From an uncultured Ramlibacter sp. (lineage in GTDB: Bacteria > Pseudomonadota > Gammaproteobacteria > Burkholderiales > Burkholderiaceae_C), in the NCBI RefSeq assembly GCF_936925435.1, contig NZ_CAKZHQ010000019.1, positions 1 to 64,000 on the forward strand: a stretch of DNA of 64,000 bases, in the 5' to 3' direction. Within the stretch, counting starts at the first letter, position 1; each line of letters starts with the position of its first letter. This document shows positions 23,967-61,885 of the stretch, piece after piece. Below the pieces are notes generated by a model. The model did not search any database. It saw only the letters and a program-made list of their open reading frames with translations, and was not told the origin of the DNA. The translations under genes were made by a program, and so were the position numbers.

Positions 23967-23983
23967 GCTATCTACTTGATAGC
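23967..23983. repeat. 17-bp dispersed palindrome, copy 2 (in opgH 3' end)
   Basis: GCTATCTACTTGATAGC. Read on the minus strand it supplies the last codons of opgH (GCT ATC AAG TAG, i.e. Ala-Ile-Lys-stop). The arms GCTATC and GATAGC pair perfectly. Confidence 0.75.
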
Positions 23984-25930
23984 GAGCGCGGTGCCGCGGC
24001 TGGCGTGGCGCCAGGCCCGGCGCAGCACCATGGGCGAGCGCGATTCTTCCGGAATCAGCAGCAGGCCGCGGCCGCGCATCCAGCCGCCCAGCTCCACATG
24101 GCTGGTCAGCACGGCCAGCGGCACGGCCAGCAGCAGCGGCAGGGCCACCGGCGCCAGCCAGACCAGGGCGCCCAGCTGGATCGATGCCACGGCGCCGGCC
24201 AGCAGGCCGATGACGATGGTCATGGGCGACAGGCGCAGCGCCGCTTCGCGCCAGGACAGGACGGCGGCTTCGCGCGGGGGCGACTTCCATTCCAGCTTGA
24301 GGCCGGTCAGCGCCACCAGCACGAACAGCGAATGCGCCAGCATGCGGATGGGCGCCAGCAGCAGGGCCAGCACGGTTTCCAGCACGGCGCTGCGCAGCAG
24401 GCCGGCGCCGCCGCCGAACTGCGCCTGCTTGCCCTGGAGGAAGACCGCCGCCAGGCCCAGGATGCGCGGCATGAACAGCATGCACAGGGTCCAGGTCCAC
24501 AGGCCGCGCAGTTCGGACGGCACGGCATGCCAGTCGGGCACGATGGCCGCGCCCGACATCCACAGGGCGGTGCCGAAGGTCATGAAGGCCAGCCACAGCG
24601 GCGCCGACAGATAGGACATGGCGCCGATGGCGAACATCGCCCTGTGCACGCGGTGGATGCCGGGTTCGGCGATCAGGCGCGAGTTCTGCAGGTTGCCCTG
24701 GCACCAGCGGCGGTCGCGCTGCAACTCGCTGAGCAGGTCGGGCGGCTGCTGCTCGTAGCTGCCGGTCAGGTCCGAAACCAGCCAGACGTGGTAGCCGGCG
24801 CGGCGCATCAGGGCGGCCTCGACGAAGTCGTGCGACAGGATGCCGCCGGCCATGCCGCCTGCGCCCGGGATGGGCGCCAGCGCGCAGTGCTGCATGAAGG
24901 GCGCGACGCGGATGATGGCGTTGTGGCCCCAGTAGTGCGACTCGCCCAGCTGCCAGAACTGCATGCCCAGCGTGAACAGGCGCCCCGTCACGCGCGAGGC
25001 GAACTGCTGCGCGCGCGCATGCAGCGTGGCGTGGCCGATGGCCTGGGTGGCGGTCTGGATGATGCCGGCCTGCGGGTGGGCTTCCATCAGCTTGACCAGG
25101 GTGGTGATGCAGTCGCCGCTCATCACGCTGTCGGCGTCCAGCACCACCATGTAGCGGTAGTCCTTGCCCCAGCGGCGGCAGAAGTCGGCAACGTTGCCGG
25201 CCTTGCGGTGCGTGCGGCGGCTGCGCAGGCGGTAGTAGACCTCGATCTGCGGCTGCTCCGGGTGCGCGGCCAGGGCCTGGCGCAGGCCCGCCCAGGCGGC
25301 GCGCTCGGCGGCGATGGTGGCGGGCTCGCTGCTGTCGGACAGCACGAAGACGTCGAAGCCGCTGGCGTGGCCGGTGGCGGCCACCGACTCGCAGGTGGCG
25401 CGCAGGCCGGCGAACACCGTGGCCACGTCCTCGTGGCAGATCGGCATGATGATGGCGGTGCGCGCATCGGGATTCATCGGGTGGTGGGCCACCTCGCGCG
25501 CCGACAGCGCATGGCCGTCACCGCGCAGGCTGACCCAGAAGCCCATGAGGGCGGTGACGAAGCCGGTCACGACCCAGACCGAGAGCACGGCGAACAGCGT
25601 GGCCTGGCCGATCTGCAGCCAGCTGTTGTCGTAGTCGGGCTGGGCATTGACGAACAGCGCGGTCGCCACCGCGGTGCTGGCCAGGGTCAGCAGCAGGAAG
25701 ACGAAGCGGCGCCTGGCGGCGGCTCTTTCCCAGGCCTGGCGCCGGCTGGGCGCGGCGGGCGCGCTGGCGCCTTGCCACAGCAAGGCCGTGGCCATGCTGT
25801 TCCAGAAGCCGCGCCAGGGGCGCGGCGCCATCGAGCCGCGATGCAGCGGCGGCGCCGTCATCGCATTCGGATGGCGCTCTCCGCGCAGGCTGCTGCGCGG
25901 GCTCACTCGGGAAGAAGAATGCTGGACCAT
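23972..25930 (-). CDS. opgH: Glucans biosynthesis glucosyltransferase OpgH (MdoH)
   Basis: A 652-residue inner-membrane GT2 glycosyltransferase that polymerises beta-1,2-linked glucose from UDP-glucose and exports it for osmoregulated periplasmic glucans. Two N-terminal TM helices (residues 75-145) precede the catalytic domain: AIIMPICHEDVATVF, YMVVLDADSVMSGD (DxD), SHDFVEAALMRRAG, and the QxxRW motif RRWCQGNLQNS. A multi-helix C-terminal channel follows. It is shorter than the E. coli protein (about 850) because the N- and C-terminal extensions are smaller. It overlaps opgG by 28 bases. Its final residues and stop codon lie in a dispersed repeat. Confidence 0.94.
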   Translation of the reverse strand: MVQHSSSRVSPRSSLRGERHPNAMTAPPLHRGSMAPRPWRGFWNSMATALLWQGASAPAAPSRRQAWERAAARRRFVFLLLTLASTAVATALFVNAQPDYDNSWLQIGQATLFAVLSVWVVTGFVTALMGFWVSLRGDGHALSAREVAHHPMNPDARTAIIMPICHEDVATVFAGLRATCESVAATGHASGFDVFVLSDSSEPATIAAERAAWAGLRQALAAHPEQPQIEVYYRLRSRRTHRKAGNVADFCRRWGKDYRYMVVLDADSVMSGDCITTLVKLMEAHPQAGIIQTATQAIGHATLHARAQQFASRVTGRLFTLGMQFWQLGESHYWGHNAIIRVAPFMQHCALAPIPGAGGMAGGILSHDFVEAALMRRAGYHVWLVSDLTGSYEQQPPDLLSELQRDRRWCQGNLQNSRLIAEPGIHRVHRAMFAIGAMSYLSAPLWLAFMTFGTALWMSGAAIVPDWHAVPSELRGLWTWTLCMLFMPRILGLAAVFLQGKQAQFGGGAGLLRSAVLETVLALLLAPIRMLAHSLFVLVALTGLKLEWKSPPREAAVLSWREAALRLSPMTIVIGLLAGAVASIQLGALVWLAPVALPLLLAVPLAVLTSHVELGGWMRGRGLLLIPEESRSPMVLRRAWRHASRGTALAIK

Positions 25931-27429
25931 GTTTCGCTCACGCTGTGGTTGTCTTGTTGCAGGAAGGCGCGCAGCTCGACCGGCCGAGCCGGGTCGATGC
26001 GCTGCACGCGAAAGCTCATGCGCCAGCCATGGGTGGCGGGATTGGGATAGGCAAGTTGTTCGACAACCCGGCCGTTGCCGTCGGCGCTGACCATGGCGCG
26101 CACCGGCGTGCCGGGGGGCAGGGCGTCCAGCGCCGGGCCGGCGACATCGAGCACGTACTGGACCTGGCCGCTGCGGTTGTCGCCCGGCTGCACGAAGCCG
26201 TGGCCGCGGCGCGACTGCAGCACGCTGGCGCCCGGCGCGCGTTGCTGGGCGTCGCCCTGCCAGGCGATCTCCCAGGCCAGCTCCAGCGGCTCGCCGGCGG
26301 CCGGCAGGCTGCGCGGCACCCAGTAGGCGACCACGTTGTCGTGCGTCTCGTCGGGCGCCGGCAACTGCAGCAGCTCGACCCGACCCGGACCCCAGTCGCC
26401 CAGCGGCTTGACCCAGGCGCTGGGCCGGCGTTCGTAGCGCGCCTCCACGTCCTCGTAGCTGGCGAAGGCGCGGTCGCGCTGCATCAGGCCGAAGCCGGCC
26501 AGGCGCTCCAGCGCGAAGGAGCTGGCGATGGGCCGCGCCGGGTTCTGCAGCGGCCGCCAGATCCATTCGCCGTTGCCGCTGGCCACCAGCAGGCCGTCGG
26601 AGTCGTGCACTTCGGGGCGGAAGTCACCGGGCCGCGGCTGGTTCTCGCCGAAGAAGAACATGCTGGTCAGCGGCGCCACGCCCAGGGTGGCGATGGGTTT
26701 GTCGCTGGCGCGCAGGAACAGGCGCATGCGCACCTGCACTGTGGTCTGCGCGCCGGGCGTGATGTCGAAGCGGTAGGCGCCGGCTGCGCGTGGCGAGTCC
26801 AGCAGCGCGTAGACCGTCAGCTGCCTGGCGTCGGCGGCCGGGCGCTCCAGCCAGAAATCCGTGAAGCGTGGGAATTCTTCCGGCCCGCCGCCGGCGCTGT
26901 CGATGGCCAGGCCGCGGGCCGACAGGCCGTACTGCTGGCCGGCGCCCAGGGCGCGGAAATAGCTCGCGCCCTGGAACACCACCAGTTCGTCCTTGTACTG
27001 CGGGCTGTTCAAGGCGGTGTGGACGCGCAGGCCGGCAAAGTCCAGGTCGCCCCAGGGCGTGGCCGCCAGGGCGTTCTTGCCGAAATCGAAGTCCTCGCGT
27101 GCGTAGGCCAGCTTGCGCGCGCCGTCGGGCGTGATCTCGTGGATGCGCACGGCCTGGGCTTGCAGCTTGCCGCGGTGGAAGAACATGGCCTCGTACGGCA
27201 ACCTGGCGTCGCGCCAGAGCGCGCGCTCTGGCCGGAAGCGGATGTCACGCAGGCCGTCGTAGTCCATGCGCGCCAGGTCCGCCGGCAGCGCCGGCGTGCT
27301 GTCGCTCCAGGCCGACTGGGCGCGGTTGCGGGCCAGCGCGCTGAGTTCCTCGAAGCCGAATGCGGCGGCGTTGGCACTGAGGCCGGCCAGCGCCAGCAGC
27401 AAAGCGGAGAGGGTGTGCAAGGGTTTCAC
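25903..27429 (-). CDS. opgG: Periplasmic glucan biosynthesis protein OpgG (MdoG)
   Basis: A 508-residue periplasmic protein with a signal peptide (MKPLHTLSALLLALAGLSANAAA, cleaved about residue 23). It has the OpgG beta-sandwich: FEELSALARNRAQ, YDGLRDIRFRPERALWR, and the conserved SMFFFGENQPRPGDFRPEVHDSDGL core. It then has RAFASYEDVEARYERRPSAWV and a C-terminal Ig-like domain. OpgG modifies the glucan backbone, probably by forming or trimming branches, and works with OpgH. The two overlap by 28 bases and form the standard opgGH operon. A promoter must lie in the 210-bp gap 27430-27639, which also holds a short direct repeat. Confidence 0.95.
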   Translation of the reverse strand: MKPLHTLSALLLALAGLSANAAAFGFEELSALARNRAQSAWSDSTPALPADLARMDYDGLRDIRFRPERALWRDARLPYEAMFFHRGKLQAQAVRIHEITPDGARKLAYAREDFDFGKNALAATPWGDLDFAGLRVHTALNSPQYKDELVVFQGASYFRALGAGQQYGLSARGLAIDSAGGGPEEFPRFTDFWLERPAADARQLTVYALLDSPRAAGAYRFDITPGAQTTVQVRMRLFLRASDKPIATLGVAPLTSMFFFGENQPRPGDFRPEVHDSDGLLVASGNGEWIWRPLQNPARPIASSFALERLAGFGLMQRDRAFASYEDVEARYERRPSAWVKPLGDWGPGRVELLQLPAPDETHDNVVAYWVPRSLPAAGEPLELAWEIAWQGDAQQRAPGASVLQSRRGHGFVQPGDNRSGQVQYVLDVAGPALDALPPGTPVRAMVSADGNGRVVEQLAYPNPATHGWRMSFRVQRIDPARPVELRAFLQQDNHSVSETWSSILLPE

Positions 27430-27470
27430 GCTGATCCCAGGGCAAACCCTGTGCCAGACTGTAAAAACCT

Positions 27471-27612
27471 TTTGAAATCAACGACTTGGCGCTGAAATCT
27501 GTGTATCCAATTGCTGCAATGCAGCGAATGGTCTGCAGAACCCCTGTTTTTGTCGTCAGCGGGCGACGCCTCGGCCGGCGGTCTTGAAAAAGTCTTTGAA
27601 AATCAACGACTT
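27471..27612 (+). repeat. Short direct repeat pair upstream of opgG
   Basis: TTTGAAATCAACGACTT at 27471-27487 recurs as TTTGAAAATCAACGACTT (one extra A) at 27595-27612, with 107 bases between. Both lie in the non-coding gap between the opgG start and the glrR stop, and the flanks (runs of A before, TGCG/GGCG after) are also similar. This may be a small duplication or a pair of regulator sites for opgGH. Confidence 0.45.
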
Positions 27613-27639
27613 ATGCGCGTCGCCAAAAAGCGACGGGCC

Positions 27640-29009
<1,370 letters not shown>

Positions 29010-29013
<4 letters not shown>

Positions 29014-29597
29014 GGCCGGGGCGCGCTGGCCGCCGGGCGCGAAGGCAGGCTGCGCTCGATGGCGCGCACGGCTTCCAGGCGGTCGTTGAGGGCGTCGATG
29101 CGGCGCTGGCTGTCGCGCAGCTGCTGGGCTTGGCGTTCGGCCTGCTCCTCCAGCCGGCGCGCCTCCAGCTGCTGGCCGATCTGGCTGGCCAGCAGGCGGG
29201 CCAGCGACTGCAGCTCCTGCGCCGAGCTGCCGTTCTGGGCCAGCACGCGCTGCACCAGGGCCTGGGCACGCGCCAGGTTGGGCGGGCTGCGGGTCTGCGC
29301 CAGCGCCAGCGCCAGTTCCAGCGAGGCCAGCGGCGCATCGGCCGGCTCGCCCCGGCGGCTGATCTCCAGCGCCAGCTCGGTGGGCCCGAGCACGCGCACG
29401 CGGTCGGCATAGGCCAGCAGCTCGCTGGCGCCGCTGGCCGGCGGCGGCACGGCTTCAGCCGTGGGCGCAACGACTGCGCTGGGCGGTGGCGCTGGGACCG
29501 GCACGGGCGCGGCGCAGGCCGCCAGCAGCAATGCGGCGGCCAGGGTGGAGTGCAGGCGGAAAACCGCGCGGAGCGTGCGGCCGGTGTCAGGAGGCAT
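29010..29597 (-). CDS. qseG: QseG-like outer-membrane lipoprotein
   Basis: A 195-residue lipoprotein. The signal segment LHSTLAAALLLAACAAPVPV carries a lipobox (LAAC, acylated Cys about residue 28), followed by a Pro/Ala/Val linker. The mature helical domain (about 60-185) includes long heptad-rich stretches with many Gln/Glu/Arg (LEARRLEEQAERQAQQLR). Its place between the kinase and regulator, overlapping both (11 and 4 bases), matches QseG/YfhG, which in E. coli and Salmonella interacts with the QseE sensor. Sequence identity in this family is low, so the name rests mainly on context. Confidence 0.75.
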
Positions 29598-31002: not shown

Positions 31003-31012
31003 CACCCGCGCG

Positions 31013-32356: not shown

Positions 32357-32366
32357 GGCGCTGGCC

Positions 32367-32786: not shown

Positions 32787-32926
32787 GGTGTCTGTCCAGA
32801 GGCTGTCGAAGGAAAAAGGCACTGCGCGAACAGTGCCTCGGGGATGGGCCGCAGTTTACCAAAGCGGGCCTTCTTATACTGCCGCCTTCGTCCCAGCGCT
32901 GGCTGGCATCACCCACAGGAGTTTTC

Positions 32927-47910: not shown

Positions 47911-49500
47911 ATGAACGCACTCATCTCCGTTTCCGACAAGACCGGCATCCTGGAATTCGCCCAGGCCCTGCACGCCATGGGCATTCGCCTGCTCTCCACC
48001 GGCGGCACCGCCAAATTGCTGGCCGACGCCGGCCTGCCGGTCACCGAAGTGGCCGAGCTCACCGGCTTTCCTGAAATGCTGGACGGCCGGGTCAAGACCC
48101 TGCATCCCAAGGTCCATGGCGGCCTGCTCGCGCGCCGCGACCTGCCAGAGCACGTGGCGGCGCTCAAGGCCCACGGCATCGAGACCATCGACCTGCTGGT
48201 GGTCAATCTCTACCCCTTCGAGGCCACCGTGGCCAAGCCCGGCTGTACGCTGGAGGATGCGATCGAGAACATCGACATCGGCGGCCCGGCCATGGTGCGC
48301 AGCGCCGCCAAGAACTGGAAGGACGTGGGCGTGCTGACCGACGCCGGCCAGTACCCGCTGGTGCTCGAGGAGTTGCGCAGCGGCGGCAAGCTCACGGACA
48401 AGACCAAGTTCGCCCTGTCGGTCGCGGCATTCAACCGCATCAGCAACTACGACGGCGCCATCAGCGACTATCTCTCGCGCATCGACGACCCCGAGTCAAG
48501 CTCGGGGCAGGCTGGCCTCAGCCAGTTCTCGGGCCAGACCAACGGCCGCTTCGTCAAGCTGCAGGACCTGCGCTACGGCGAGAACCCGCACCAGCAGGCC
48601 GCCTTCTACCGCGACCTGCACCCCGCGCCCGGCTCCCTGGTCACCGCCGTGCAGTTGCAGGGCAAGGAGCTGTCGTACAACAACATCGCCGATGCCGACG
48701 CCGCCTGGGAATGCGTCAAGAGCTTCAGCGAAGCTGCCTGCGTCATCGTCAAGCACGCCAACCCCTGCGGCGTGGCCATCGCGCAGGACGCGCTGGGCGC
48801 CTACAGCAAGGCCTTCCAGACCGACCCGACCTCGGCCTTCGGCGGCATCATCGCCTTCAACCGCACGCTCGACGGCGCCGCGGCGCAGGCGGTGAGCAAG
48901 CAGTTCGTCGAGGTCCTGATGGCGCCGGCCTTCACGGCCGAGGCGCTGGAGATCTTCAAGGCCAAGGCCAATGTGCGTGTCCTGCAGATCGCTTTGCCGC
49001 CCGGTGGTGCCAGCGACTGGGACAACGGCCGCAACCTGATGGACATCAAGCGCGTCGGTTCGGGCCTGCTGATGCAGACCGCCGACAACCGCGAACTGAC
49101 GGTGGCCGAGCTCAAGGTGGTGACGAAGAAGCAGCCGACGCCCGAGGAGTTGCAGGACCTGCTGTTCGCCTGGAAGGTCGCCAAGTACGTCAAGTCCAAC
49201 GCCATCGTCTTTTGCAAGGGCGGCATGACCATGGGCGTGGGTGCCGGCCAGATGAGCCGGCTGGACTCGGCGCGCATTGCCAGCATCAAGGCCGGCCATG
49301 CCAAGCTGTCGCTGCAAGGCACGGCGGTGGCCAGCGATGCCTTCTTCCCGTTCCGCGACGGCCTGGACGTTGTCATCGACGAAGGCGCGAGCTGCGTGAT
49401 CCAGCCCGGCGGCAGCATGCGCGACGGCGAGGTGATCGCCGCCGCTGATGAGCGCGGCGTCGCCATGGTGTTTTCCGGCGTGCGCCACTTCAGGCACTGA
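47911..49500 (+). CDS. purH: Bifunctional AICAR transformylase/IMP cyclohydrolase
   Basis: A 529-residue enzyme for the last two steps of IMP synthesis. The IMP cyclohydrolase domain (1-200) has the MGS-like [20 protein letters not shown] and [15 protein letters not shown]. The AICAR transformylase domain follows with [28 protein letters not shown], the catalytic Lys-His pair, and [20 protein letters not shown] at the end. It uses 10-formyl-THF. It is the last gene of the dusB-fis-purH unit. Confidence 0.97.
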
Positions 49501-49546
49501 TTCCAGAGCGGAATCGGCGCCTGGCCCCCTGCGGCGGGCCTGAGTT

Positions 49547-49563
49547 GCTATCAGTTTTGTAGC
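49547..49563. repeat. 17-bp dispersed palindrome, copy 4 (in hemL 3' end)
   Basis: GCTATCAGTTTTGTAGC. Read on the minus strand it holds the last codons of hemL (GCTACAAAACTGATAGC, in frame ...CTA CAA AAC TGA), giving Leu-Gln-Asn-stop. It also occupies the convergent gap with purH. Confidence 0.72.
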
Positions 49564-50849
49564 GTCTTGAAGGCTTCGCGGGCCGCTTCGACAGTTTGCG
49601 CGATGTCGTTGGCGCTGTGCGCGGAGCTGACGAAGCCGGCTTCGTACAGGGCCGGTGCAATGTAGACGCCGCGGTCCAACAGGCCGTGGAACAGCTTGTT
49701 GAAGCGTGGGCTGTCGGTCTTCATCACCTGGGCATAGTTGTGCGGCAGCTCGGGCAAGAGGAAGAAGCCGAACATGCCGCCTTCGCAGTCGGCGTTGAAG
49801 GGCAGGCCCTCGGCCTGGGCCGCTGCGCTCAGACCGTCGACCAATGAGCGGGTGCTGGCCGACAGCGCGTCGAAGAAGCCGGGCTTGCTGATTTCAGCCA
49901 GGGTGGCCAGGCCGCAGGCCGTGGCCACGGGGTTGCCCGAGAGTGTGCCGGCCTGGTAGACCGGGCCCAGCGGCGCGAGCTGCTCCATGATGGCGCGCGG
50001 TCCGCCGAAGGCCGCCAGCGGCATGCCGCCGCCGATGACCTTGCCCATCACCGTGATGTCGGGCGCGAAGCCGGGGATAGCCCTGGCGTAAACGGCCTGT
50101 GCGCCACCGAGCGCCACGCGAAAGCCCGTCATCACCTCGTCGAACACCAGCAGCGCGCCGTGCTGCGTGCACAGTTCGCGGCAGCGCTGCATGAAGGGCA
50201 GGCTGGCACGCACGAAGTTCATGTTGCCGGCGATCGGCTCGATCGCCAGGCAGGCCAGCTCGCTGCCGTGCAGGGCGAAGGCTTCTTCCAGCTGCGCGAC
50301 GTTGTTGTATTCCAGGACCAGGGTGTGCTGCACCACCTCTGGCGGCACGCCGGCGCTGGTGGGATTGCCGAAGGTCGCCAGGCCCGAGCCGGCCTTGACC
50401 AGCAGGGCGTCGGCGTGGCCGTGGTAGCAGCCTTCGAACTTGATGATCTTGCTGCGGCCGGTGGCGCCGCGCGCCAGCCGGATCGCGCTCATCGCCGCTT
50501 CGGTGCCCGAGCTGACCAGGCGCACCATGTCCATCGAGGGCATCAGCGCCAGGATGGCCTCCGCCAGTTCGACCTCGCGCTCGGTCGGCGCGCCATAGGA
50601 GAAGCCTTCCAGCACGGCCTTTTGCACCGCCTCGACCACGGCCGGATGGCCATGGCCCAGGATCATCGGGCCCCAGGATCCGATGTAGTCGATGTGGCGC
50701 TTGCCGTTGGCGTCCCAGAAGTAGGCGCCCTGGGCGCGCTGCACGAAGCGCGGCGTGCCGCCGACGGCGCGAAAGGCCCGCACCGGCGAGTTGACCCCAC
50801 CGGGGATGCAGCGCCGTGCGCGCTCGAAAAGTTGTTCGTTCTGGTCCAT
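49551..50849 (-). CDS. hemL: Glutamate-1-semialdehyde 2,1-aminomutase
   Basis: A 432-residue PLP enzyme that converts glutamate-1-semialdehyde to 5-aminolevulinate in the C5 haem pathway. Motifs: [65 protein letters not shown], and the PLP lysine in [20 protein letters not shown]. Length is standard. It is 4 bases downstream of the ThiD-like gene. Its stop codon and last residues come from the dispersed repeat. Confidence 0.97.
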
Positions 50850-52127: not shown

Positions 52128-52526
52128 GTGAGCACGACTGGAGCAGGGTTCAAGGTGCTGGTGATCGATGACAGCAACACCATCCGGCGCAGTGCTGAGA
52201 TTTTCCTGAAGCAGGGTGGCCATGAGGTCATGCTGGCCGAGGACGGTTTCGATGCCCTTGCCAAGGTCAACGACTACCAGCCCAATCTCATCTTCTGCGA
52301 CATCCTCATGCCCCGTCTGGATGGCTACCAGACCTGCGCGATCATCAAGCGCAACGCCAAATTCGCCTCGGTGCCTGTGGTCATGCTGTCCTCCAAGGAC
52401 GGCGTGTTCGACAAGGCCCGCGGCCGCATGGTCGGGTCGCAAGACTACCTGACCAAACCGTTTACCAAGGACCAGTTGCTGCAGACAGTGCAGCAGTTCG
52501 GTGCCGCCAATCAAGGAGTAGTGTGA
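52128..52526 (+). CDS. pilG: Twitching motility response regulator PilG
   Basis: A 132-residue single receiver domain, full length for PilG. It has VLVIDDSNTIRRSAEIFL with the acidic DD pair, phospho-Asp in IFCDILMPRLDGYQ, a Ser switch residue in VVMLSSKDGVFD, and QDYLTKPFTKDQLLQ with the conserved Lys. It has no output domain. In Pseudomonas PilG receives phosphate from ChpA and promotes pilus extension. The start is GTG with AGGAG upstream. Overlap with pilH is one base. Confidence 0.93.
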   Translation: MSTTGAGFKVLVIDDSNTIRRSAEIFLKQGGHEVMLAEDGFDALAKVNDYQPNLIFCDILMPRLDGYQTCAIIKRNAKFASVPVVMLSSKDGVFDKARGRMVGSQDYLTKPFTKDQLLQTVQQFGAANQGVV

Positions 52527-52891
52527 TGGCTATCAAGAAAGTCCTGGTCGTGGACGATTCCAAGACCGAGCTGATGTTCATGACGGACTTGCTGCAAAAG
52601 AACGGCTTCGCGGTGAAGACCGCCGAGAACGCCGAAGACGCCTTTCGTCGCCTGGCCGAGGAAAAACCCGACCTGATCCTGATGGACGTGGTGATGCCGG
52701 GCCAGAATGGCTTCCAGCTGACGCGCGCCATCACGCGCGATCCGCTCTATGCCGACGTGCCAATCATCATGTGCACCAGCAAGAACCAGGAAACCGACCG
52801 CGTCTGGGGCATGCGCCAGGGCGCGCGCGACTACATCACCAAACCGGTGGACGCGGACGAGCTCATGGCCAAGATCAAGGCCCTGAGCTGA
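52526..52891 (+). CDS. pilH: Twitching motility response regulator PilH
   Basis: A 121-residue single-domain response regulator: VLVVDDSKTELMFMTDLL, phospho-Asp in LILMDVVMPGQNGFQL, IIMCTSKNQETDRVWG (Thr/Ser switch), and RDYITKPVDADELM. PilH opposes PilG by promoting pilus retraction or acting as a phosphate sink. ATG 52526 overlaps the pilG stop; AAGGAG is correctly placed before it. Confidence 0.93.
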   Translation: MAIKKVLVVDDSKTELMFMTDLLQKNGFAVKTAENAEDAFRRLAEEKPDLILMDVVMPGQNGFQLTRAITRDPLYADVPIIMCTSKNQETDRVWGMRQGARDYITKPVDADELMAKIKALS

Positions 52892-52911
52892 TCCGGGCCC
52901 CCTAGAGAACA

Positions 52912-53442
52912 ATGGCCAACCGCGAAGCCCTCCGCGAACTTCAAAGCCGCCTGGCAAGCCGTCTGCAGGCCGCCCGTACCGAGGGCACGCAAGCCTCCTG
53001 GCTGGCGGTGGAGGCTGCCGGCAAGCGGTACCTGTTCCCGCTGGCGCAGTCCGGCGAGATTTTTCCATTTGCCAGCACCCAGCCCGTGCCGTACACCCAG
53101 GCCTGGTTCCTGGGCGTGGCCAACCTGCGCGGCGGCCTGTTCGGCGTCGTCGATCTGGCCGGCTTCGTGGCCGGGCAGGCGCCGGCGCCGCGTTCGGACG
53201 CCATCCGCGCCGAGTCGCGCCTGGTCGCGCTCAACGCCATGCTCGAAGTCAATTGCGCGCTGCTGATCGACCGGCTCTCTGGCCTTCGCAATCTTGACAG
53301 CTTCTCCTCGTCCAGTGAGCCCCCGGCGGGCTCGCCCGACTATTTCGGCAGCGGCTACACCGATGCCGGCGGCGCCTACTGGCAGGAAATCAATCTGCAA
53401 GCCCTGTCGCAACAACCCCAGTTCCTGAGCATCAGCGCTTAA
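52912..53442 (+). CDS. pilI: CheW-like adaptor PilI
   Basis: A 176-residue CheW-domain protein that couples PilJ to the ChpA kinase. It has [20 protein letters not shown], a groove segment [20 protein letters not shown], and [20 protein letters not shown], typical of CheW beta-barrel subdomains. The C-terminal [21 protein letters not shown] is characteristic of PilI. It follows pilH by 20 bases and precedes pilJ by 23. Confidence 0.92.
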
Positions 53443-53465
53443 GTTTTCCCCGGAAGGTTCGCATC

Positions 53466-55760
53466 ATGTCCGTCGTTGACCAACTCAAAAACCTGTTCTC
53501 CAAGAAACCTGCCGACAGCTCGGCCGACCCCGGTGGAGAACTGAGTCTCGCGATGCCCGATGCCTCGCTTGACCCGATGGCCACGGGCGCCATGGATGCG
53601 GCCGGCAGGAACACGCTGCTGGAGCAGCCACTCGATCCCGACAGCGTGGCCGGCGAAGACTCGCTCGAGCCGATGGATGTTGTCGACGAGGCCGAACTGA
53701 TCTCGGTGCCCCTGCTCGGGCGCCGCACCATCGTCACGCACCAGCGCATTTTGTTCACCCTGCTGGCCCTGTCGCTGGTGGTGCTGGGCTCTGTGGCCGT
53801 GTTCGCGGTGAACCAGGCGGACAAGGTGGCCTTGCAGGTGGCCGGCACCGGCCAGTCGCTGATGCAGTCGCAGCGCCTGGCCAAGTCGGTGTCGCAGGCC
53901 CTGGTGGGCAGCCCCCAGGCCTTCCCGGACGTGAAGGAAAGCGCCGACGTGCTGGCCAAGACGGTGCGCGGCCTGAAGTCCGGCGACGAGTCGCTGCGCA
54001 TCCAGCCGGTGGCCGAGGAATACCAGGACGACATCGCCAAGATCAATCCGCTGATGGAGCGCGCCGAGAAGAACGCCGGCACCGTGATGGGACAGCAGAA
54101 GATCCTGACCCAGGTGGGCAACGCCCTGCGCACCATCAACCGCCAGTCGTCCGACCTGCTGGAAATCGCCGAGACCGTGTCCTCGCTCAAGCTGCAGCAG
54201 AACGCCGCGCCGGCCGAAATCTCCGCCGCCGGCCAACTGGTGATGTTGACGCAGCGCATCGGCAAATCGGCCAACGAATTCCTGACGATGGAAGGCGTGT
54301 CGCCCGAGGCGGTGTTCCTGCTGGGCAAGGACTTGAACTCGTTCAAGGAAATCGCCCAGGGCCTGCTCGAAGGCAGCCCTGACCTGCGCCTGGCCGGCTC
54401 CAAGGACCCGCAGACGCGCGAGCGCCTGGAGGCGCTGATGAAGCTCTATGAACAGACCCGGACGCAGGCCGGCGCCATTCTGGGCAACCTGCAGGGCCTG
54501 GTGTCCGCGCGCGAAGCGCAGGCAGCCATCATTGCCGACAGCGAGCCGCTGCGCCGCTCGCTGGAAGACTTGCAGGGCAAGCTGTCGTCGCAGACCGGCC
54601 TGGGCGCCGGCGCCCTGACGGCCCTGTTCGTGTCGTCGATCTTCGCCATCCTCTGCGCCGTGGGCCTGGCCTACGTGCAGCTGCAGGACAGCCGCAAGCG
54701 CCAGACTGTGGCTGAGCAGCAGCGCCTGGAAGCCGAGCAGCAGGAGCAGGAAGCCAAGCGCGTGAACGACGCCAACCAGGCGGCCATTTTGCGGTTGATG
54801 AACGAGCTGCAGACAGTGGCCGAAGGCGACCTGACCCAGGAAGCCACGGTGACCGAGGACATCACGGGCGCCATCGCCGACTCAGTGAACTACACGGTGG
54901 AAGAACTTCGCCAGCTGGTGGGCAACGTGCAGAACACGGTCACCCGGGTGGCGCAGACGACGGCCCAGGTGGAAAGCACCTCGACCGAGCTGCTGGCGGC
55001 ATCGACCGAGCAGCTGCGCGAAATTCGCGAAACCGGCCAGTCGGTGCTCGACATGGCAGGCCGAATCAACCAGGTGTCCGGGCAGGCGCAGGAGTCGGCC
55101 CAGGTGGCCCGTCAGTCGCTGCTGGCCGCCGAGTCCGGCCTGGCAGCCGTGCAGAACGCCATCGGCGGCATGAACTCCATCCGCGACCAGATCCAGGAAA
55201 CCTCCAAGCGCATCAAGCGGCTGGGCGAATCGTCCCAGGAGATCGGCGAAATCACCGAGCTGATTTCCGACATTACCGAACAGACCAATGTGCTGGCCCT
55301 GAACGCCGCCATCCAGGCGGCGTCGGCCGGCGAAGCAGGCCGCGGCTTCTCGGTGGTGGCCGAAGAAGTGCAGCGCCTGGCTGAACGTTCCGCAGACGCC
55401 ACGCGCCAGATCTCGGCGCTGGTCAAGGCGATTCAGACCGACACCCAGGACGCCGTGGCCGCCATGGAGCGCTCCACGCAGGGCGTGGTGGAAGGGGCCA
55501 AGCTGTCCGACAACGCCGGCACCGCACTGACCGAGATTGACCAGGTGTCGCGCAAGCTCGCCGAGCTGATCGAGCAGATTTCGGCCTCTGCGTCCAAGGA
55601 AGCCGAATCGGCCAACGTTGTGGCCGGCAACATCCAGCACATTTTCGCGGTGACGGAGCAGACCGGAGAAGGCACGCGCTCGACGGCACAGCAGGTGCGC
55701 GAACTGTCCCGCATGGCCGAGGAACTGCGCCAGTCGGTCTCGCGGTTCAAGATCGCCTGA
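53466..55760 (+). CDS. pilJ: Methyl-accepting chemotaxis protein PilJ
   Basis: A 764-residue transducer. An acidic cytoplasmic N-terminal extension (1-85) precedes TM1 ([20 protein letters not shown], about 95-115). A large periplasmic region contains two PilJ-type helical repeats ([20 protein letters not shown] and [19 protein letters not shown]). TM2 ([19 protein letters not shown]) is near 385, then HAMP and the MCP signalling domain with the hairpin tip [21 protein letters not shown]. It senses surface or pilus tension in Pseudomonas. It lacks an obvious C-terminal CheR-docking pentapeptide, and no cheR or cheB gene is adjacent. Confidence 0.95.
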
Positions 55761-55871
55761 AAGATGTTGGCCCCCATGCTCGCCCGAAGCTCGCTGCCCC
55801 CTGTGGGAGTGTTCGCGCCTTGGGGCGGCCCGGCGGCGCTCATGCCCGCTCGTTAAATAGGCAGAGCCACC

Positions 55872-58800
55872 ATGCAAGCCAACGAAACTGATCTGGATCT
55901 GGCAACCAACGACCTCGGCCCATTGGCCTGGGTGCTCGATGAACTGCGCAAGTCGCTCGATTCGGCCTCAGCCGCTCTGCGCCGCTTTGTCCGCGATGCC
56001 GGCATGGCGCGCGGCACCGATATGGCGTCGGTCGACGCGGGCCAGCTGCGCATCGCACGCCAGCAGCTGCACCAGGCGGTGGGCGCGCTCGAGATGGTTG
56101 GCCTGGGTGCGCCGGCGCTCATGCTGCGGGCTATGGAATCGGCCGTGCAGCAATTCGTCGAGCGGCCCGAGCTGTGCATCGAGCCGGCTGCGGCCAAGGT
56201 GGAACGGGCCGGCTTTGCGTTGACCGAATACCTCGAAGGCCTGCTGCTGGGCAAGCCGGTCACGGCCGTGGCACTGTTTCCGCAGTACCGCGACGTGCAG
56301 GAGCTGTCGGGCGCCGACCGCGTCCACCCGGCCGACCTGTGGGCGCTGGACTGGCGCTGGGTCGAGCCGCAGACGCCGGCGGCAGCCGAGTCGTTGGTTT
56401 ATGACCCTGCCGTGCGTTCGCGCCTGGACCAGTCCGTGCTGCGCGTCGTCAAAACCGGCAACGTGGCCAGCGCGCGTGAGATCGCCGGCGTCTGCCTGGC
56501 GCTGGCCTCGACCCAGCCCGCGCGCCAGCCAAAGATTTTCTGGAAGATCGCCGCCGCCTATTTCGAAGCGATGGCGCTGGGACTGCTGCCACTGGACATC
56601 TACGTCAAGCGCGCCGCCTCGCGGGTGCTGCTGCAATACGCATCACTGGCCAAGGGCGAGATGGGCGTGTCCGACCGCCTGGCCCAGGACCTGCTGTTCT
56701 TCTGCTGCCAGGCCGTGCCGCCGCGCGCGAGCGATGCGCCCATCCTGACCAGCGTACGCCTGGCCTGGGGCCTGGCGCGCTTCAAGCCCGTCGACTACCA
56801 GACCAGCCAGTTCGGCCGCTTCGACCCGGTCCTGCTGGCCCAGTCGCGCAAGCGCATCGGCGTCGCCAAGGAAACCTGGTCGGCGCTGGCTGGCGGCGAC
56901 GCCGGCAAAATCAAGGCGGTGGCTGACCAGTTCCAGTTGGTCAGCGACTCCCTCACCCGGCTGTATCCGCCCAGTGCACCGCTGGCCCAGGCCTTGAGCG
57001 CCGCGATCGATTCGGTGGTGCGCACCGCACAGCCGCCGCGGCCGGAACTGGCCATGGAAGTGGCCACCGCCGTGCTGTACCTGGAAGCGGCCTTCGAAGA
57101 CCTCGACCCCAGCGACTCGCAGCTGGCTGCGCGCACTGCGCGCCTGGCCGAGCGCCTGGACCAGGTGCGCCAGGGCGGCAAGCCCGAGCCGCTGGAATCC
57201 TGGATGGAGGAGCTGTACCGGCGCGTGAGCGATCGCCAGACCATGGGCAGTGTGGTCGGTGAGCTGCGCACCACGCTCAGCGAGCTGGAGAAGCTGCTCG
57301 ACGTGTTCTTCCGCAAGCCGCAGGACAAGACGCCGCTGCAGACGGCCCCTGGCCACCTGTCGCAGATGCGCGGTGTGCTGTCGGTGCTTGGTCTGGACCA
57401 GGCATCGCAGGCGGTGTTGCGCATGCGCGAAGCAGTCGAACAGATCATGGTCACCGAGATCGACGAGGACAAGGCGCGCGCCGCCGGCACCTTCGACAAG
57501 CTCGGCAACAACCTGGGTGCGCTGGGTTTCCTGATCGACATGCTCAATTACCAGCCGACGCTGGCCAAGAAGCTGTTTGTCTATGACGACCAGCTGGGCG
57601 AACTCAAGCCGCTGATGGGTCGCACCGTGCAAGGGGCCGGCGATGCCGCCGCCGCAGTGGGCGTCAGCGACGAACTCTCGCAGCAGGTCAGCGCTGTGGT
57701 CACCGAGGCCGACCGTGGCGAGACCCCGGGCGAGCTGACGGCCAGACTCGACCAGATCGCCACCCATGCCGTGCTGGCCGACCAGACGGCGCTGGCGCAT
57801 ACGGCGCGAGAGGCCGCCGCGGCCGTTGCGGCCCATGATTCCGGCGCGGCTTCGGCAGCGCTGCACAGCCTGGCTGCCGCGGTGCAGCCGCCGGCGGCTG
57901 AGCCCGCTGCGCCGGCCGGCAGCGACATTGAAGAAGACGACCTGCTCGACATCTTCCTGGAAGAGGCGCGTGAGGTGGTGCAAAACGGCCTGGCTGCCGT
58001 CCAGACGCTGCGCGCCAACCCCGCCGACATGTCGGAGTTGACCACCCTGCGACGCGCCTTCCACACGCTCAAGGGCAGCTCGCGCATGGTGGGCCTGACC
58101 GAGTTCGGTGAAGCCGGCTGGTCGCTCGAGCAGGTGCTCAATGCATGGATGGGCGACCAGAAGCCGGCCAGCGAAGGCCTGCTGACCCTTGCGAACGATG
58201 CGATGCGCGGCTTTGGCCGCTGGGTGGAGGACATCGCCCTGCACCAGGACGGCAGCTGGAAAGCCTCCATGTTCCGCGGCCCTGCAGATGCCATGCGCAA
58301 CGAGCAGAAGCTGGTGCCGCTGGCCTTGCCCAGCGTGGTGGAAGCGCCCGAAGCCGAGGCACCGGTCGCAGCAGCGGACGCAGTGGTGGTTGTGGAGACG
58401 GCGGCTGCCGATCCGCTGGCCGGCATGTTCGACCTGCCGCTGGAAGAATCCGTTGCGCCGGTTGCAGATGCAACGCCGGCACATGTGGACGAGGCCTTCT
58501 CTTTCGACATGGCCGAAGTCTCCGGTGCCGAGTCGATCCAGGTGAGCGAAGTCCCGGCGGACGACCTGCTTGCGGACTTCAATTTCGATCTTGGGCCCGA
58601 GGCTGGTGCAGCGACGGCGCCGCCGGCAGCGGAGGCCGTCGAAGTGGCGCAGATCGAGGGTATCGACTTCGCCAGCCTGGCCGCCTTGTCGGGCATGCAT
58701 GACGCATCGCCGTCCGCTGATGGCCCCCCAGTGGCAGAGACGGTCGAACTGGCCGCCGCCGATGTCGATTTCGACATTCTCTCGGCCACGCCGCAGGATC

Positions 58801-61800
58801 ATGCACCGCCGGTGGCGACCGAGAGCGTTGACCACAGCGACGCCAAGGCGCCCGACGAGCAGGTCAAGGTGATCGGTTCGCTGCGCATCGGCATCCCTCT
58901 GTACAACGTCTACCTGAACGAGGCGGACGAGTGGTCGCGCCACCTGCTGACCGAGCTGACCGAATGGACGCTGGAGCTGGACCGCCAGGTCCCCGATGCG
59001 GCCGTGGGCCTGGCCCATGCCCTGGCGGGCAGCTCCGCCACCGTGGGCTTCCAGGCCTTGTCGGACATTGCGCGTGCGCTGGAAAACGCCTTGCAGCATG
59101 CGCAACTGCTGGTCTGCGGCACGCCCCAGCACGGCCAGGCCTTCGTCAATGCGGCCGAAGAAATCCGCCGCTTGCTACACCAGTTCGCTGCCGGCTTCCT
59201 GAAGGAACCGGACGCCACCATTGCCCCGGCATTGGCGGCGCTGGAAGACATCCAGGCGCCCAAGCGCGCCGACCTGCCGGAAGACGTGCCGCTGAGCGAT
59301 TTCACCGGCCTGGACGTGCTTGCCGAGCCCACCGCCCCTGTTGCGGCGCCGCTTGCCAGCGTCCCGCCCGCCCCGGCACCTGTGGCCGCACCCGTGGTGG
59401 CCGCAGCGCCCCTGGCTTTTGCTCCCGCCCGCGTTGCCGCGCCGGCGCAGACCAGGACGGTGGACCGCGAGCAGGACGCAGACGATATCGACGTCGCCGA
59501 TGCGATCGACCTGGATCTGTTCCCGATCTTCGAGGAAGAGGCGGTCGAGCTGATCCCGCAACTGGGCGGCGCTCTGCGCCAATGGTCGGCGCGGCCGGAC
59601 AACCGCGGTGCGCGCGACGAAGTGTTGCGCGCCCTGCACACGCTCAAGGGCAGCGCCCGGCTGGCCGGCGCCCTGCGGCTGGGTGAAATGGCCCACCGCA
59701 TGGAGTCGGAGATCGAGCAGTTCGGCGCCGAGGCCTTGGCCACGGCCGACCTGGAGCCGCTGCTGCAGCGCTTTGACAACCTGCAAACCCGATTCGACGT
59801 GCTGCGCGCCGTGCAGGCGGCCGGCCCTGAGGCCGCCGTGGCCGAGCCGCTGGACGAGGAAGTGCCCGGCGCCGCCGATGTGCTGGTCGTTCCGGCCGCG
59901 CCTTCGGCGGGGCGTGCCTCGCTGGCCATGCCGGTGGTGACCCTGATGGCGCCCAAGCGTGCCGCCGCCAACCAGGCGGTGCGCGTGCGCTCCCAGCTGC
60001 TGGACCGCCTGGTCAACCAGGCCGGCGAGGTGATGATCACCCGCTCGCGGCTGGAGACCGAACTGCGCCAGCTGCGCGTGTCGCTGGGCGATCTGACGGG
60101 CAACCTGGACCGCCTGCGCAGCCAGCTGCGCGACATCGAGCTGCAGGCCGAGTCGCAGATGCAGTCGCGCTTGGCCCAGGCCAAGGACTCGGCCGCCAAC
60201 TTCGACCCGCTGGAGTTCGACCGCTTCACCCGCGTGCAGGAACTGACCCGCATGATGGCCGAGTCGGTCAACGACGTGGCCACCGTGCAGCGCAACCTGC
60301 AGCGCACGGTGGAAGCGACGGAAGACGACCTGATTGCCCAGGCCCGCCAGACCCGCGAGCTGCAACGCGACCTGCTGCGCACCCGCATGGTGGAGTTCGA
60401 AGGCATCTCGGACCGCCTGTACCGGGTGATCCGCCTGGCCTCCAAGGAGACCGGCAAGCAGGTCAAGCTGGACATCACCGGCGGCTCCATCGAGATGGAC
60501 CGCGGCGTGCTCGACCGCATGACGCCGGCCTTCGAGCACCTGCTGCGCAATTGCGTGGCGCACGGCATTGAAGACCCGGCGACGCGCCTGGCCGCAGGCA
60601 AGGACCCGGTCGGCACCATCGAGATCGGCCTGCACCACGAAGGCAACGACGTGTCGGTGGATTTCCACGACGACGGCGCCGGCCTGAACCTGCCGCGCAT
60701 CCGTGAGAAGGCGCAGCAGCAGGGCCTGATCGCGCCGGGCCAGTCGCTGAGCGACGCCGAGGCCGCCAATCTGATCTTCATGCCGGGCTTTTCCACCGCC
60801 GCGCAGGTGACCGAACTGGCCGGCCGCGGCATCGGCATGGACGTGGTGCGTTCCGAAGTCAACGCCCTGGGCGGGCGCATCGAGACCACCACCGAAGCCG
60901 GCAAGGGCAGCAACTTCAAGCTGGTGCTGCCGCTGACCACCGCCGTGACGCAGGTGGTGATGATCCGCTCGGGCAACCTGACCGTCGGCGTGCCGGCCAA
61001 CGTGGTGGAACTGGTGCGCCGCGCCCCCGCCACCGAGGTCGAGCAGGCCTACAAGAGCGGCATCTACGAGTTCGGCGGCGAGCAGCTGCCCTTCCACTGG
61101 TCGGGCGCCCTGCTGCAGTCTTCGGCGCGCAGCGCGGAAGCCCAGGCCAAGACGCTGCCGGTGGTGGTGTTCCGCAGCGCCGCCCAGCGCGTCGCCATGC
61201 ACGTCGATGAAGTGCTGGGCAACCAGGAAGTGGTGGTGAAGAACCTCGGCCCGCAGCTGTCCCGCCTGCCTGGCCTGTCCGGCATGACGGTGCTGGCCTC
61301 CGGCGCGGTGATCCTGATCTACAACCCCGTGGCCCTGAGCACGGTGTACGGCGAACAGGCCCGCCTGCTCAGCGCCGACAGCGTGCAGGCCTCGGACCAG
61401 GGCGACGCGGGGCAGCCGGCCCTGCCGGTCATGCCGGCCCAGCCGCAGATCCCTCTGGTGATGGTGGTCGACGACTCGATCACCGTGCGCCGCGTGACCC
61501 AGCGCCTGCTGGCCCGCGAAGGCTACCGCGTGGTGATGGCGGCCGACGGTCTGCAGGCCCTGGAGCGCCTGGCCGAGGAAAAGCCCACCGTGGTGCTGTC
61601 GGACATCGAGATGCCACGCATGGACGGCTTCGACCTGGCCCGCAACATCCGCGCCGACGCTCGGCTGGCCGACCTGCCCATCATCATGATCACCTCGCGC
61701 ATCGCCGAGAAGCACCGTGAGCATGCGATGGAACTGGGCGTCAACAACTACCTGGGCAAGCCCTATTCGGAAGAAGAGCTGCTGAGCCTGGTCAAGCACT

Positions 61801-61826
61801 ACTGCAGCGCAGCGGTTGCGGCCTGA
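55872..61826 (+). CDS. chpA: Chemotaxis-type hybrid kinase ChpA (PilL)
   Basis: A 1984-residue CheA-like kinase. Two weak N-terminal Hpt-like modules have His near residues 67 and 495 but lack the LKGSS pattern. A canonical Hpt is at His731 (FHTLKGSSRMVG). A variant is at His1049 (AHALAGSSATVG, no Lys). Another canonical Hpt is at His1256 (LHTLKGSARLAG). Low-complexity Ala/Pro/Glu linkers lie near 810-980 and 1140-1215. Then follow the dimerisation helices, the HATPase (LLRNCVAHGIEDP, DDGAGLN, GRGIGMDVV), a CheW domain (about 1690-1830) and a receiver with phospho-Asp1911 (LSDIEMPRMDG). It phosphorylates PilG and PilH. An 111-base gap separates it from pilJ. Confidence 0.95.
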   Translation: MQANETDLDLATNDLGPLAWVLDELRKSLDSASAALRRFVRDAGMARGTDMASVDAGQLRIARQQLHQAVGALEMVGLGAPALMLRAMESAVQQFVERPELCIEPAAAKVERAGFALTEYLEGLLLGKPVTAVALFPQYRDVQELSGADRVHPADLWALDWRWVEPQTPAAAESLVYDPAVRSRLDQSVLRVVKTGNVASAREIAGVCLALASTQPARQPKIFWKIAAAYFEAMALGLLPLDIYVKRAASRVLLQYASLAKGEMGVSDRLAQDLLFFCCQAVPPRASDAPILTSVRLAWGLARFKPVDYQTSQFGRFDPVLLAQSRKRIGVAKETWSALAGGDAGKIKAVADQFQLVSDSLTRLYPPSAPLAQALSAAIDSVVRTAQPPRPELAMEVATAVLYLEAAFEDLDPSDSQLAARTARLAERLDQVRQGGKPEPLESWMEELYRRVSDRQTMGSVVGELRTTLSELEKLLDVFFRKPQDKTPLQTAPGHLSQMRGVLSVLGLDQASQAVLRMREAVEQIMVTEIDEDKARAAGTFDKLGNNLGALGFLIDMLNYQPTLAKKLFVYDDQLGELKPLMGRTVQGAGDAAAAVGVSDELSQQVSAVVTEADRGETPGELTARLDQIATHAVLADQTALAHTAREAAAAVAAHDSGAASAALHSLAAAVQPPAAEPAAPAGSDIEEDDLLDIFLEEAREVVQNGLAAVQTLRANPADMSELTTLRRAFHTLKGSSRMVGLTEFGEAGWSLEQVLNAWMGDQKPASEGLLTLANDAMRGFGRWVEDIALHQDGSWKASMFRGPADAMRNEQKLVPLALPSVVEAPEAEAPVAAADAVVVVETAAADPLAGMFDLPLEESVAPVADATPAHVDEAFSFDMAEVSGAESIQVSEVPADDLLADFNFDLGPEAGAATAPPAAEAVEVAQIEGIDFASLAALSGMHDASPSADGPPVAETVELAAADVDFDILSATPQDHAPPVATESVDHSDAKAPDEQVKVIGSLRIGIPLYNVYLNEADEWSRHLLTELTEWTLELDRQVPDAAVGLAHALAGSSATVGFQALSDIARALENALQHAQLLVCGTPQHGQAFVNAAEEIRRLLHQFAAGFLKEPDATIAPALAALEDIQAPKRADLPEDVPLSDFTGLDVLAEPTAPVAAPLASVPPAPAPVAAPVVAAAPLAFAPARVAAPAQTRTVDREQDADDIDVADAIDLDLFPIFEEEAVELIPQLGGALRQWSARPDNRGARDEVLRALHTLKGSARLAGALRLGEMAHRMESEIEQFGAEALATADLEPLLQRFDNLQTRFDVLRAVQAAGPEAAVAEPLDEEVPGAADVLVVPAAPSAGRASLAMPVVTLMAPKRAAANQAVRVRSQLLDRLVNQAGEVMITRSRLETELRQLRVSLGDLTGNLDRLRSQLRDIELQAESQMQSRLAQAKDSAANFDPLEFDRFTRVQELTRMMAESVNDVATVQRNLQRTVEATEDDLIAQARQTRELQRDLLRTRMVEFEGISDRLYRVIRLASKETGKQVKLDITGGSIEMDRGVLDRMTPAFEHLLRNCVAHGIEDPATRLAAGKDPVGTIEIGLHHEGNDVSVDFHDDGAGLNLPRIREKAQQQGLIAPGQSLSDAEAANLIFMPGFSTAAQVTELAGRGIGMDVVRSEVNALGGRIETTTEAGKGSNFKLVLPLTTAVTQVVMIRSGNLTVGVPANVVELVRRAPATEVEQAYKSGIYEFGGEQLPFHWSGALLQSSARSAEAQAKTLPVVVFRSAAQRVAMHVDEVLGNQEVVVKNLGPQLSRLPGLSGMTVLASGAVILIYNPVALSTVYGEQARLLSADSVQASDQGDAGQPALPVMPAQPQIPLVMVVDDSITVRRVTQRLLAREGYRVVMAADGLQALERLAEEKPTVVLSDIEMPRMDGFDLARNIRADARLADLPIIMITSRIAEKHREHAMELGVNNYLGKPYSEEELLSLVKHYCSAAVAA

Positions 61827-61852
61827 CAGGGCCCCAGCTCCCGTCAATTGGA

Positions 61853-61885
61853 CCTGATCAGCTATCGATTTGATAGCTGATCAGG
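61853..61885. repeat. 17-bp dispersed palindrome, copy 5, in an extended 14-bp inverted repeat
   Basis: The core GCTATCGATTTGATAGC (61861-61877) is extended on both sides: arms 61853-61866 (CCTGATCAGCTATC) and 61872-61885 (GATAGCTGATCAGG) are exact complements with a 5-base loop GATTT. It fills the gap between the convergent chpA and phr genes and encodes the last photolyase residues and stop. The RNA hairpin would be strong on either strand, but no T-run follows. Confidence 0.78.

Follow-up and report, generated by a model that had tools for sequence, protein, structure and literature searches.

We describe here a directional motif of 65 bp in the genome of an uncultured Ramlibacter sp. (G000, the source genome; 4.49 Mb, 57 contigs), starting from a stretch of 64,000 nucleotides of its contig NZ_CAKZHQ010000019.1, which we call the window. 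This motif is found at hundreds of places in many Comamonadaceae genomes, and its spelling is species-specific. By analogy with known systems, we propose, with a probability of about 60 percent, that this bacterium and many other Comamonadaceae use it as a DNA uptake signal, which would mark DNA from their surroundings as "own".

A preliminary description of the window had reported five copies of a 17-bp palindrome, GCTAT-N7-(G/A)TAGC, at positions 8958, 23967, 38277, 49547 and 61861. All five are present there, against 0.03 expected by chance, and none of 100 dinucleotide shuffles equalled this count. The observation is therefore confirmed, and its interpretation is partly supported. The palindrome (hereafter P1) is real, but it is only the head of the 65-bp motif. 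We read its flanks with a composite repeat in mind, a Comamonadaceae repeat that would end in AAGCGCTAGAGGCC; this idea is not counted as a result.

A Two-Part Motif Present in Hundreds of Copies

A pattern scan of the whole genome of G000 gave 56 strict places for GCTAT-N7-ATAGC, 80 for GCTAT-N7-GTAGC and 29 for GCTAC-N7-GTAGC. The palindrome count is far above chance, the combined GCTAT pattern giving 1+1 places in a control read backwards. The same control is high for GCTAC-N7-GTAGC (46+46), so the count of this last form rests on the AT-rich centres of its copies and on the motif that flanks them. The three arm combinations stand at 56:80:29, when 55.9:80.3:28.9 is expected if the two arms vary independently; in 153 oriented copies, the arm bases are CA 59 times, TA 45, CG 29 and TG 20. 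This independence points to half-sites read by a protein rather than to a paired hairpin.

We collected 156 of the 165 strict places and oriented each copy by its own right-hand side before building a consensus, for which 143 passed the cut and 13 fell below. The flanks of these 156 distinct copies reveal a gapless, directional motif running from position 0 to position 64, with little information beyond. It reads Y-GCTAY-N-R-W-T-T-Y-N-R-TAGC, followed in G000 by about DNCYCRGGYCCATTNSACGGGGGCTRSAGSCCNATTTNNCTNNAAA. A hold-out profile, trained on 125 copies of which none came from contig C2 or from the window, found 32 matches at E<=1e-3 in these 464 kb, two of which represent both strands of a single place; the reversed control gave no match. 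Relaxing the cut to E<=0.05 and merging matches by place brings the count to 37 copies in 464 kb, of which the window has 5 and the 400 kb of C2 the other 32. This corresponds to a density of about 1 per 12.5 kb and, by extrapolation, to about 350 copies per genome. The chance test, the control patterns and the hold-out profile all show the over-representation in the genome that is looked for in an uptake signal.

Both arms of the palindrome had been described as conserved. The left one is looser, many of the copies found by the profile having GCTCY or GCTTC, which the initial pattern misses. On C2, copies that combine such a left arm with a T-rich centre look like a second, non-palindromic class of P1 that retains ATAGC. 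We also noticed, in contig C4 of G000, a pair of palindromes 45 bp apart (190385 and 190430), the second being without a clear module.

A Shared Core and Species Dialects

We compared the window, using blastn, with stretches from five relatives (G453, G422, G574, G319 and G511). In G453, which belongs to another genus, the stretch covers four window copies (copies 2 to 5, numbered from the left), and each of them has a P1 at its orthologous place. Going by our reading of the block coordinates, P1 is also shared at 23967 and 49547 in G422, at 38277 and 61861 in G574, and at 49547, within the same purH-hemL gap, in G319. Copy 1 lies outside the aligned stretches of all five relatives, and the gene around 38277 is unaligned in G422, G319 and G511.

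The spelling of the motif differs between species. A consensus built from 36 usable of 37 G453 copies has P1, GSC, TTT and AAA at the same positions as in G000; its middle module is different, about ATGACCGC..GAC..GGACATC. In the six pairs shared by the two genomes, each copy scores higher with the matrix of its own species (6/6), using matrices that exclude those sites and with each G453 copy oriented by its better score. Seven further genus- or species-level groups, of 4 to 19 copies each, give roughly drawn additional spellings on the same frame, for a total of nine dialect groups; each was oriented by its own agreement, so that the small groups are flattered. The tail of the motif is weak in G304 (4 copies). 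P1 being the search key, its constancy is due to this selection, a bias from which the tail positions are free. Lineage dialects around a shared core, another property looked for in uptake signals, are found here.

Wide Distribution and Near-Absence in Close Kin

We surveyed 299 genomes from the GTDB family for strict symmetric sites: 106 have at least one and about 65 have ten or more, with controls at 0 or 1. When 300 genomes were surveyed across the order with the asymmetric pattern, counts above 25 were obtained in family members only (G000, G171, G204 and G294). Among named genomes, Paracidovorax anthurii (112 sites), Polaromonas sp. CG_9.7 (143), a Polaromonas metagenome-assembled genome (125) and Burkholderiales bacterium PBB3 (116) are site-rich; Limnohabitans sp. 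G3-2 (0), Curvibacter gracilis (6, control 10) and two Variovorax (18 and 26, controls 15 and 16) are site-poor.

The motif can be nearly absent from close kin. In the family survey, three same-genus genomes have 0, 1 and 0 strict sites versus 54 in G000, and in genus g204, G498 has 1 site versus 167 and 214 in its congeners. Twelve 20-kb stretches from the genus of G000 contain no P1, when about nine would be expected at the density of G000. At the places occupied in the window, P1 is found in none of 12 same-genus sister stretches at the hemL end (copy 4), none of 6 at the DUF3108 place (copy 3) and none of 6 at the phr end (copy 5), where the gap itself is resolved in 4. A tree of HscA places G000 as the sister of its twelve element-poor congeners (98/94) and groups G498 as the sister of G397 and G575; this placement makes at least two losses the simplest reading. 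In some of the gaps that hold the motif in G000 (hemL and phr ends), element-poor sisters show, by eye, unrelated hairpins or ordinary intrinsic-looking terminators.

Placement Relative to Genes

Genes were predicted from seeds consisting of the opgH-, hemL- and phr-like genes, which leaves starts approximate; two other gene finders were discarded for their shadow frames. We classified 141 of the 156 copies, excluding 15 with a score below 5: 50 are fully intragenic, 58 lie between co-directed genes, 25 between convergent ones, 5 between divergent ones and 3 at an edge. In contiguous stretches, where opposite-strand matches of one place were merged and where 88 to 94 percent of bases are coding, the intragenic share is 15/32 on C2, 1/5 in the window and 11/37 in G453 (strict copies). 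Overall, a third to a half of the copies are intragenic.

The intergenic copies of these stretches are distributed as 21 convergent, 21 co-directed and 5 divergent, versus 8.0, 25.3 and 13.7 expected by intergenic length. Convergent gaps are thus favoured and divergent gaps, i.e., those with promoters, are avoided. The preliminary description had placed the copies at the ends of genes, with an expected enrichment at 3' ends. The preference for convergent ends bears this out, whereas the many intragenic copies of C2 and G453 do not; the enrichment is genuine, yet secondary. Regarding orientation, 28 copies between co-directed genes have the same direction as these genes and 30 the opposite one; inside genes the split is mildly uneven (20 same, 30 opposite).

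In-Place Copies inside Genes

The intragenic copies are constrained in their reading phase: all 20 sense copies use one phase, and the antisense copies use one phase in 26 cases and another in 4. By our reading, the phases used are those that avoid the TAG of the palindrome. These copies use rare codons. ATA accounts for 110 of 9753 isoleucine codons and GTA for 159 of 18357 valine codons in the predicted genes (about 1 percent each), when the 50 in-gene P1s use ATA 26 times and GTA 23 times. The host genes include gcvP, hscA, leuS, purK, putA and a cysN-like gene. In this last one (contig C38 of G000), the motif copy begins directly after the predicted start codon and would give the CysN-like protein its N-terminus.

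The copies in PurK and HscA of G000 have evolved in place, as looked for in an uptake signal. PurK aligns to solved PurK chains without any gap across its motif copy, and HscA has no added residues at P1 in comparison with its sisters. HscA was compared in 30 genomes, 17 element-rich and 13 element-poor: an exact P1 occupies the same codons in 10 of the former and in none of the latter (one-sided P=0.0006, uncorrected for relatedness), and three more element-rich genomes have, by eye, near variants. Four of the 13 element-poor genomes (G420, G592, G519 and G498) were scanned whole, the nine others being judged by P1-free 20-kb stretches, which are among the twelve mentioned above. In the DUF3108 linker, at copy 3, the peptide is PATESIA in G000 and of the same kind in G453 and G574 (NAINSVA and KATKSIA); none of six element-poor sisters encodes such a peptide.

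Hairpins, Mobile Repeats, Operators or Chromosome Organisers?

Three guesses had been offered in the preliminary description, i.e., mRNA 3'-end hairpins, mobile non-autonomous elements and protein-binding sites, and the last one is the best fit, since the palindrome arms vary independently. Hairpins that terminate or stabilise mRNAs at their 3' ends would explain the enrichment in convergent gaps; the module can indeed fold into an imperfect hairpin in G000, and the other hairpins or terminator-like sequences seen by eye in some sisters occupy the same gaps. However, the module stem pairs no better than shuffles (496/792 paired cells versus 496.8 in intergenic copies, 237/450 versus 238.3 in intragenic ones). 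In P1, positions 5 and 13 are independent, with no compensatory pairing, and positions 6 and 12 pair slightly above shuffles in intergenic copies (z 2.4) and not in intragenic ones. The compensatory pairing by which an RNA hairpin is recognised is therefore lacking in both palindromes; moreover, orientation is balanced between co-directed genes and many copies are intragenic. We consider RNA hairpins very unlikely as the general explanation; a side role as terminators for some intergenic copies is possible, as with the paired DNA uptake sequences (DUS) of Neisseriaceae. The same low standing applies to non-autonomous repeats, resembling repetitive extragenic palindromes (REP) or miniature inverted-repeat transposable elements, which a REP-associated tyrosine transposase (RAYT) or another transposase would have moved, sometimes onto gene ends. 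The motif is dispersed, bounded and homogeneous within a species, and over half of its copies are intergenic, which is what such repeats would give. Nevertheless, the hypothesis is largely refuted by the copies in PurK and HscA of G000, which add no residues where a REP/RAYT system would have inserted them, and by places that are common to different genera with different modules. We also searched 32 genomes for Y1_Tnp (PF01797), which is present in 29 of them, mostly in single copy: 15 genomes out of the 17 rich in the element and 14 out of the 15 poor in it. One of these 14 matches is below the family cut-off, and the poor group includes G594 despite its 16 strict sites. The domain is missing from element-rich G171 and G552; the abundance of the repeat does not follow the presence of this transposase, and we rejected a RAYT-borne repeat for this want of association. 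G000 itself has a Y1_Tnp (RAYT-like) gene at 29900-30229 of contig C5, apparently unrelated to the motif. A search of plasmids and phages with one g5 copy, a weak test given its single 67-bp query, returned no match. Together, the lack of base-pair covariation and of a RAYT link disfavours both RNA hairpins and mobile repeats.

Two other explanations call on a DNA-binding protein. Operators of a global transcription regulator would have a palindromic core such as P1, but divergent gaps hold only 5 of the 47 intergenic copies versus 13.7 expected, many copies are deep inside genes, and the named host genes are mostly housekeeping ones with no common theme; of all the explanations, this one is the least probable. 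The main rival to an uptake signal is a chromosome-structuring protein (matS-, Noc- or gyrase-like) acting at about 350 sites to organise the nucleoid, in which a dimer would read the palindrome and a second domain or a partner would read the module. The independent palindrome arms resemble half-sites, divergent gaps are avoided, and the copies listed for the single-contig genome G422 spread across 3.3 of its 4.5 Mb. The spacing on C2 is also slightly more even than random (coefficient of variation 0.72 versus 0.955, P=0.043; the evenness is weak) and, by our reading, the AT blocks are near whole helical turns apart. On the contrary, a module of about 25 bp that is respelled in each species and a near-absence from sister species would be unusual for a housekeeping organiser, and neither the listed G422 sites nor the C2 spacing shows a clear domain or a strong regularity in placement. 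We hold this explanation to be rather unlikely, and still well ahead of the three others.

A Candidate DNA Uptake Signal

Taken together, copies evolved in place, tolerance inside genes in safe frames, dialects, a preference for convergent gaps and near-absence from some lineages are the habits of DNA uptake signals. We therefore favour an uptake function, which could work as follows. The type IV pilus and competence machinery, through a pilus protein that would read the motif, would prefer outside DNA that bears it. Fragments with the motif would be more often taken up and recombined, and the signal would accumulate and stay in place by biased transformation, i.e., by molecular drive. Copies would be kept between genes, preferably at convergent ends, and inside those genes whose product accommodates the encoded peptide. 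What is recognised in common would be the conserved core P1 (roughly GCTAY-N-RAWTY-N-RTAGC), and the middle module, from position 18 to about 44, would be a species dialect co-evolving with a receptor and leading to species-specific transformation; the AT blocks (P1 centre, 52-54 and 62-64) may ease bending or melting. Upon loss of the receptor or of competence, copies would decay, leaving sister species with almost none.

Transformation has been reported in this family. Acidovorax temperans is transformed solely by DNA of its own species, and uptake by Verminephrobacter eiseniae depends on type IV pili and is sequence-selective, a large excess of foreign DNA lowering it only about tenfold (PMC4212676). 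The authors discuss DUS; in the parts of that paper covered here, no signal sequence is named and the words "motif" and "overrepresent" are absent. Sequence-preferring uptake is described, in the covered parts of PMC7811141, for two families only, and biased uptake drive can maintain the uptake signal sequences (USS) concerned (PMC7811141). We are slightly inclined to believe that the Comamonadaceae are a third bacterial family with its own uptake signal, a 65-bp word in two parts, with a family-wide core and a fast-changing dialect, which would underlie the species-specific transformation of Acidovorax and Verminephrobacter and whose gain, respelling and loss would be readable in hundreds of genomes.

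Several observations weigh against an uptake function. The density of the motif is about a tenth of that of USS (about 1 per 12.5 kb versus about 1 per 1 kb, PMC7811141), its length is far above that of USS or DUS, and its core is palindromic. Transformation failed altogether in two of the four Acidovorax species tested (PMC4212676). By our reading of block coordinates, G511 shares none of the window places. In a wider test, strict P1 was found at the expected G453 place for 6 of 17 G000 copies versus 9 of 340 random stretches; yet, when the four window copies and HscA, known beforehand, are excluded, sharing is 1/12 (P=0.28), which is not above chance, so that one part of the copy set appears old and another part turning over. 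PurL of G000 is 7 residues longer than chain 4l78 at its motif copy, and HscA of G574, G294 and G362 has four extra residues just before P1; some copies thus have nearby insertions or deletions. A chromosome-organising protein could likewise yield many sites evolved in place, and the co-occurrence of gene families with the motif was followed for Y1_Tnp as the sole family.

If the motif is an uptake signal, it would add a third case, independent of the other two and based on long signals coded in dialects, from which the origin and evolution of self-recognition in bacterial sex could be learned. It would also act as a barrier to gene flow between species of a common environmental group, and would be the missing signal for the species-specific transformation reported in Acidovorax and Verminephrobacter. 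Should the sites be those of a chromosome organiser instead, it would be equally unexpected for one DNA-binding system to have hundreds of sites respelled from species to species.

The Window Copies and Their Neighbouring Genes

Motif copy 1 (8957..9021, + strand; P1 at 8958-8974, hold-out profile E=4e-13) has its dialect module and AT tail rightward. It is flanked by a + strand gene ending at 8953 and by a converging gene for a transporter of the major facilitator superfamily. This copy had been placed 5 bases after a stop codon; it is indeed just downstream, with 4 intervening bases. Copy 3 (38276..38340, + strand; P1 at 38277-38293, E=4e-11), rightly described as lying inside a reading frame, is antisense within a DUF3108 gene (37484-38548), in a linker rich in proline and alanine.

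The three other copies are on the - strand and, as initially described, their palindromes contain the stop codons of the opgH-like, hemL and phr genes, the C-termini being ...ALAIK*, ...FKTLQN* and ...QLSNR*, respectively. Copy 2 (23920..23984; P1 at 23967-23983, E=5e-5) ends the opgH-like glycosyltransferase gene (23972..26566, - strand; Pfam glycosyl transferase family 2), which converges with an SRP54 (ffh-type) gene. Copy 4 (49500..49564; P1 at 49547-49563, E=1e-5) bridges the purH-hemL gap and ends the hemL-like aminotransferase gene (49551..50849, - strand; class-III aminotransferase). The names opgH and hemL come from the preliminary description, the domain matches supporting a glycosyltransferase and an aminotransferase. 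By the relatives of its hemL, the window comes from a Comamonadaceae-like genome; the best named ones include those of Curvibacter gracilis (87 percent), Paracidovorax anthurii (84), Variovorax (82-84), Limnohabitans (82) and Polaromonas (82). Copy 5 (61814..61878; P1 at 61861-61877, E=1e-10) ends the DNA photolyase gene phr (61862..63421, - strand) and overlaps the end of a gene at 55872-61826, whose 1984-aa product, a kinase with Hpt, CheA and receiver domains, we take to be ChpA-like. It stands within a 33-bp inverted repeat (61853-61885) that is self-complementary at 30 of 33 positions and longer than at the other copies; it may also serve to end transcription, as a terminator, in the gap that separates the ChpA-like gene from phr.

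The kinase gene closes a type IV pilus chemosensory cluster (52155..61826, + strand) with two response regulators, CheW and PilJ (PF13675). These pilus control genes, as recognised from their sequence, fit an uptake function without being a proof of competence; the cluster proves nothing for uptake because stretches from element-poor sisters align there too. At gathering scores, the only Rfam match in the window is a tRNA.

Comparison with Known Systems

The motif shares with the USS of Pasteurellaceae its many copies, their origin by point mutation in place, their presence both within and between genes and the association of a core with AT tracts (PMC7811141). USS limit uptake to relatives and are not inserted elements (PMC7811141). 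They occur about once per kb (PMC7811141) and have a 9-bp core, in contrast to the 65 bp, the palindromic core and the density of the present motif. The DUS of Neisseriaceae, whose receptor is ComP, similarly have dialects around a conserved core; they also occur inside genes, one of their frames containing a stop, and their inverted pairs are associated with terminators (PMC3630211). However, DUS are short and their dialects have most bases in common, whereas here a module of about 25 bp is respelled.

REP/RAYT systems also consist of dispersed palindromic repeats in high copy number; the 65-bp motif differs from them by its evolution in place and by the lack of a RAYT association. The BRE of Betaproteobacteria is, like the motif, a repeat of Comamonadaceae, found also in Bordetella and often at gene ends, but it is about 90 bp long, has at most 29 copies and is often in tandem (PMC3110155). 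We set it aside on this description (length, copy number and tandem habit) rather than by sequence comparison (PMC3110155).

Our searches of the open-access literature listed no paper that names a Comamonadaceae uptake signal in its title or abstract. Two spaced oligomer pairs have been published as unexplained "potential novel motifs", both often located between convergent genes: GCTTAT(N)5AAGCG, with 114 copies in Acidovorax ebreus, and ATAGCT(N)22CAAAAG, with 125 in Polaromonas naphthalenivorans (PMC5217627). The covered parts of that paper mention neither the full 65-bp motif nor dialects, copies evolved in place or a function (PMC5217627), and among the open-access papers listed by our searches we found none in which the two pairs are linked, the 65-bp motif is described or an uptake role is put forward. 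The A. ebreus motif resembles the g5 module GCGCTT...AGCGCT, and that of P. naphthalenivorans starts with ATAGC, the end of P1 (PMC5217627). By this resemblance, both are very likely pieces of the 65-bp motif, seen in two of its dialects.

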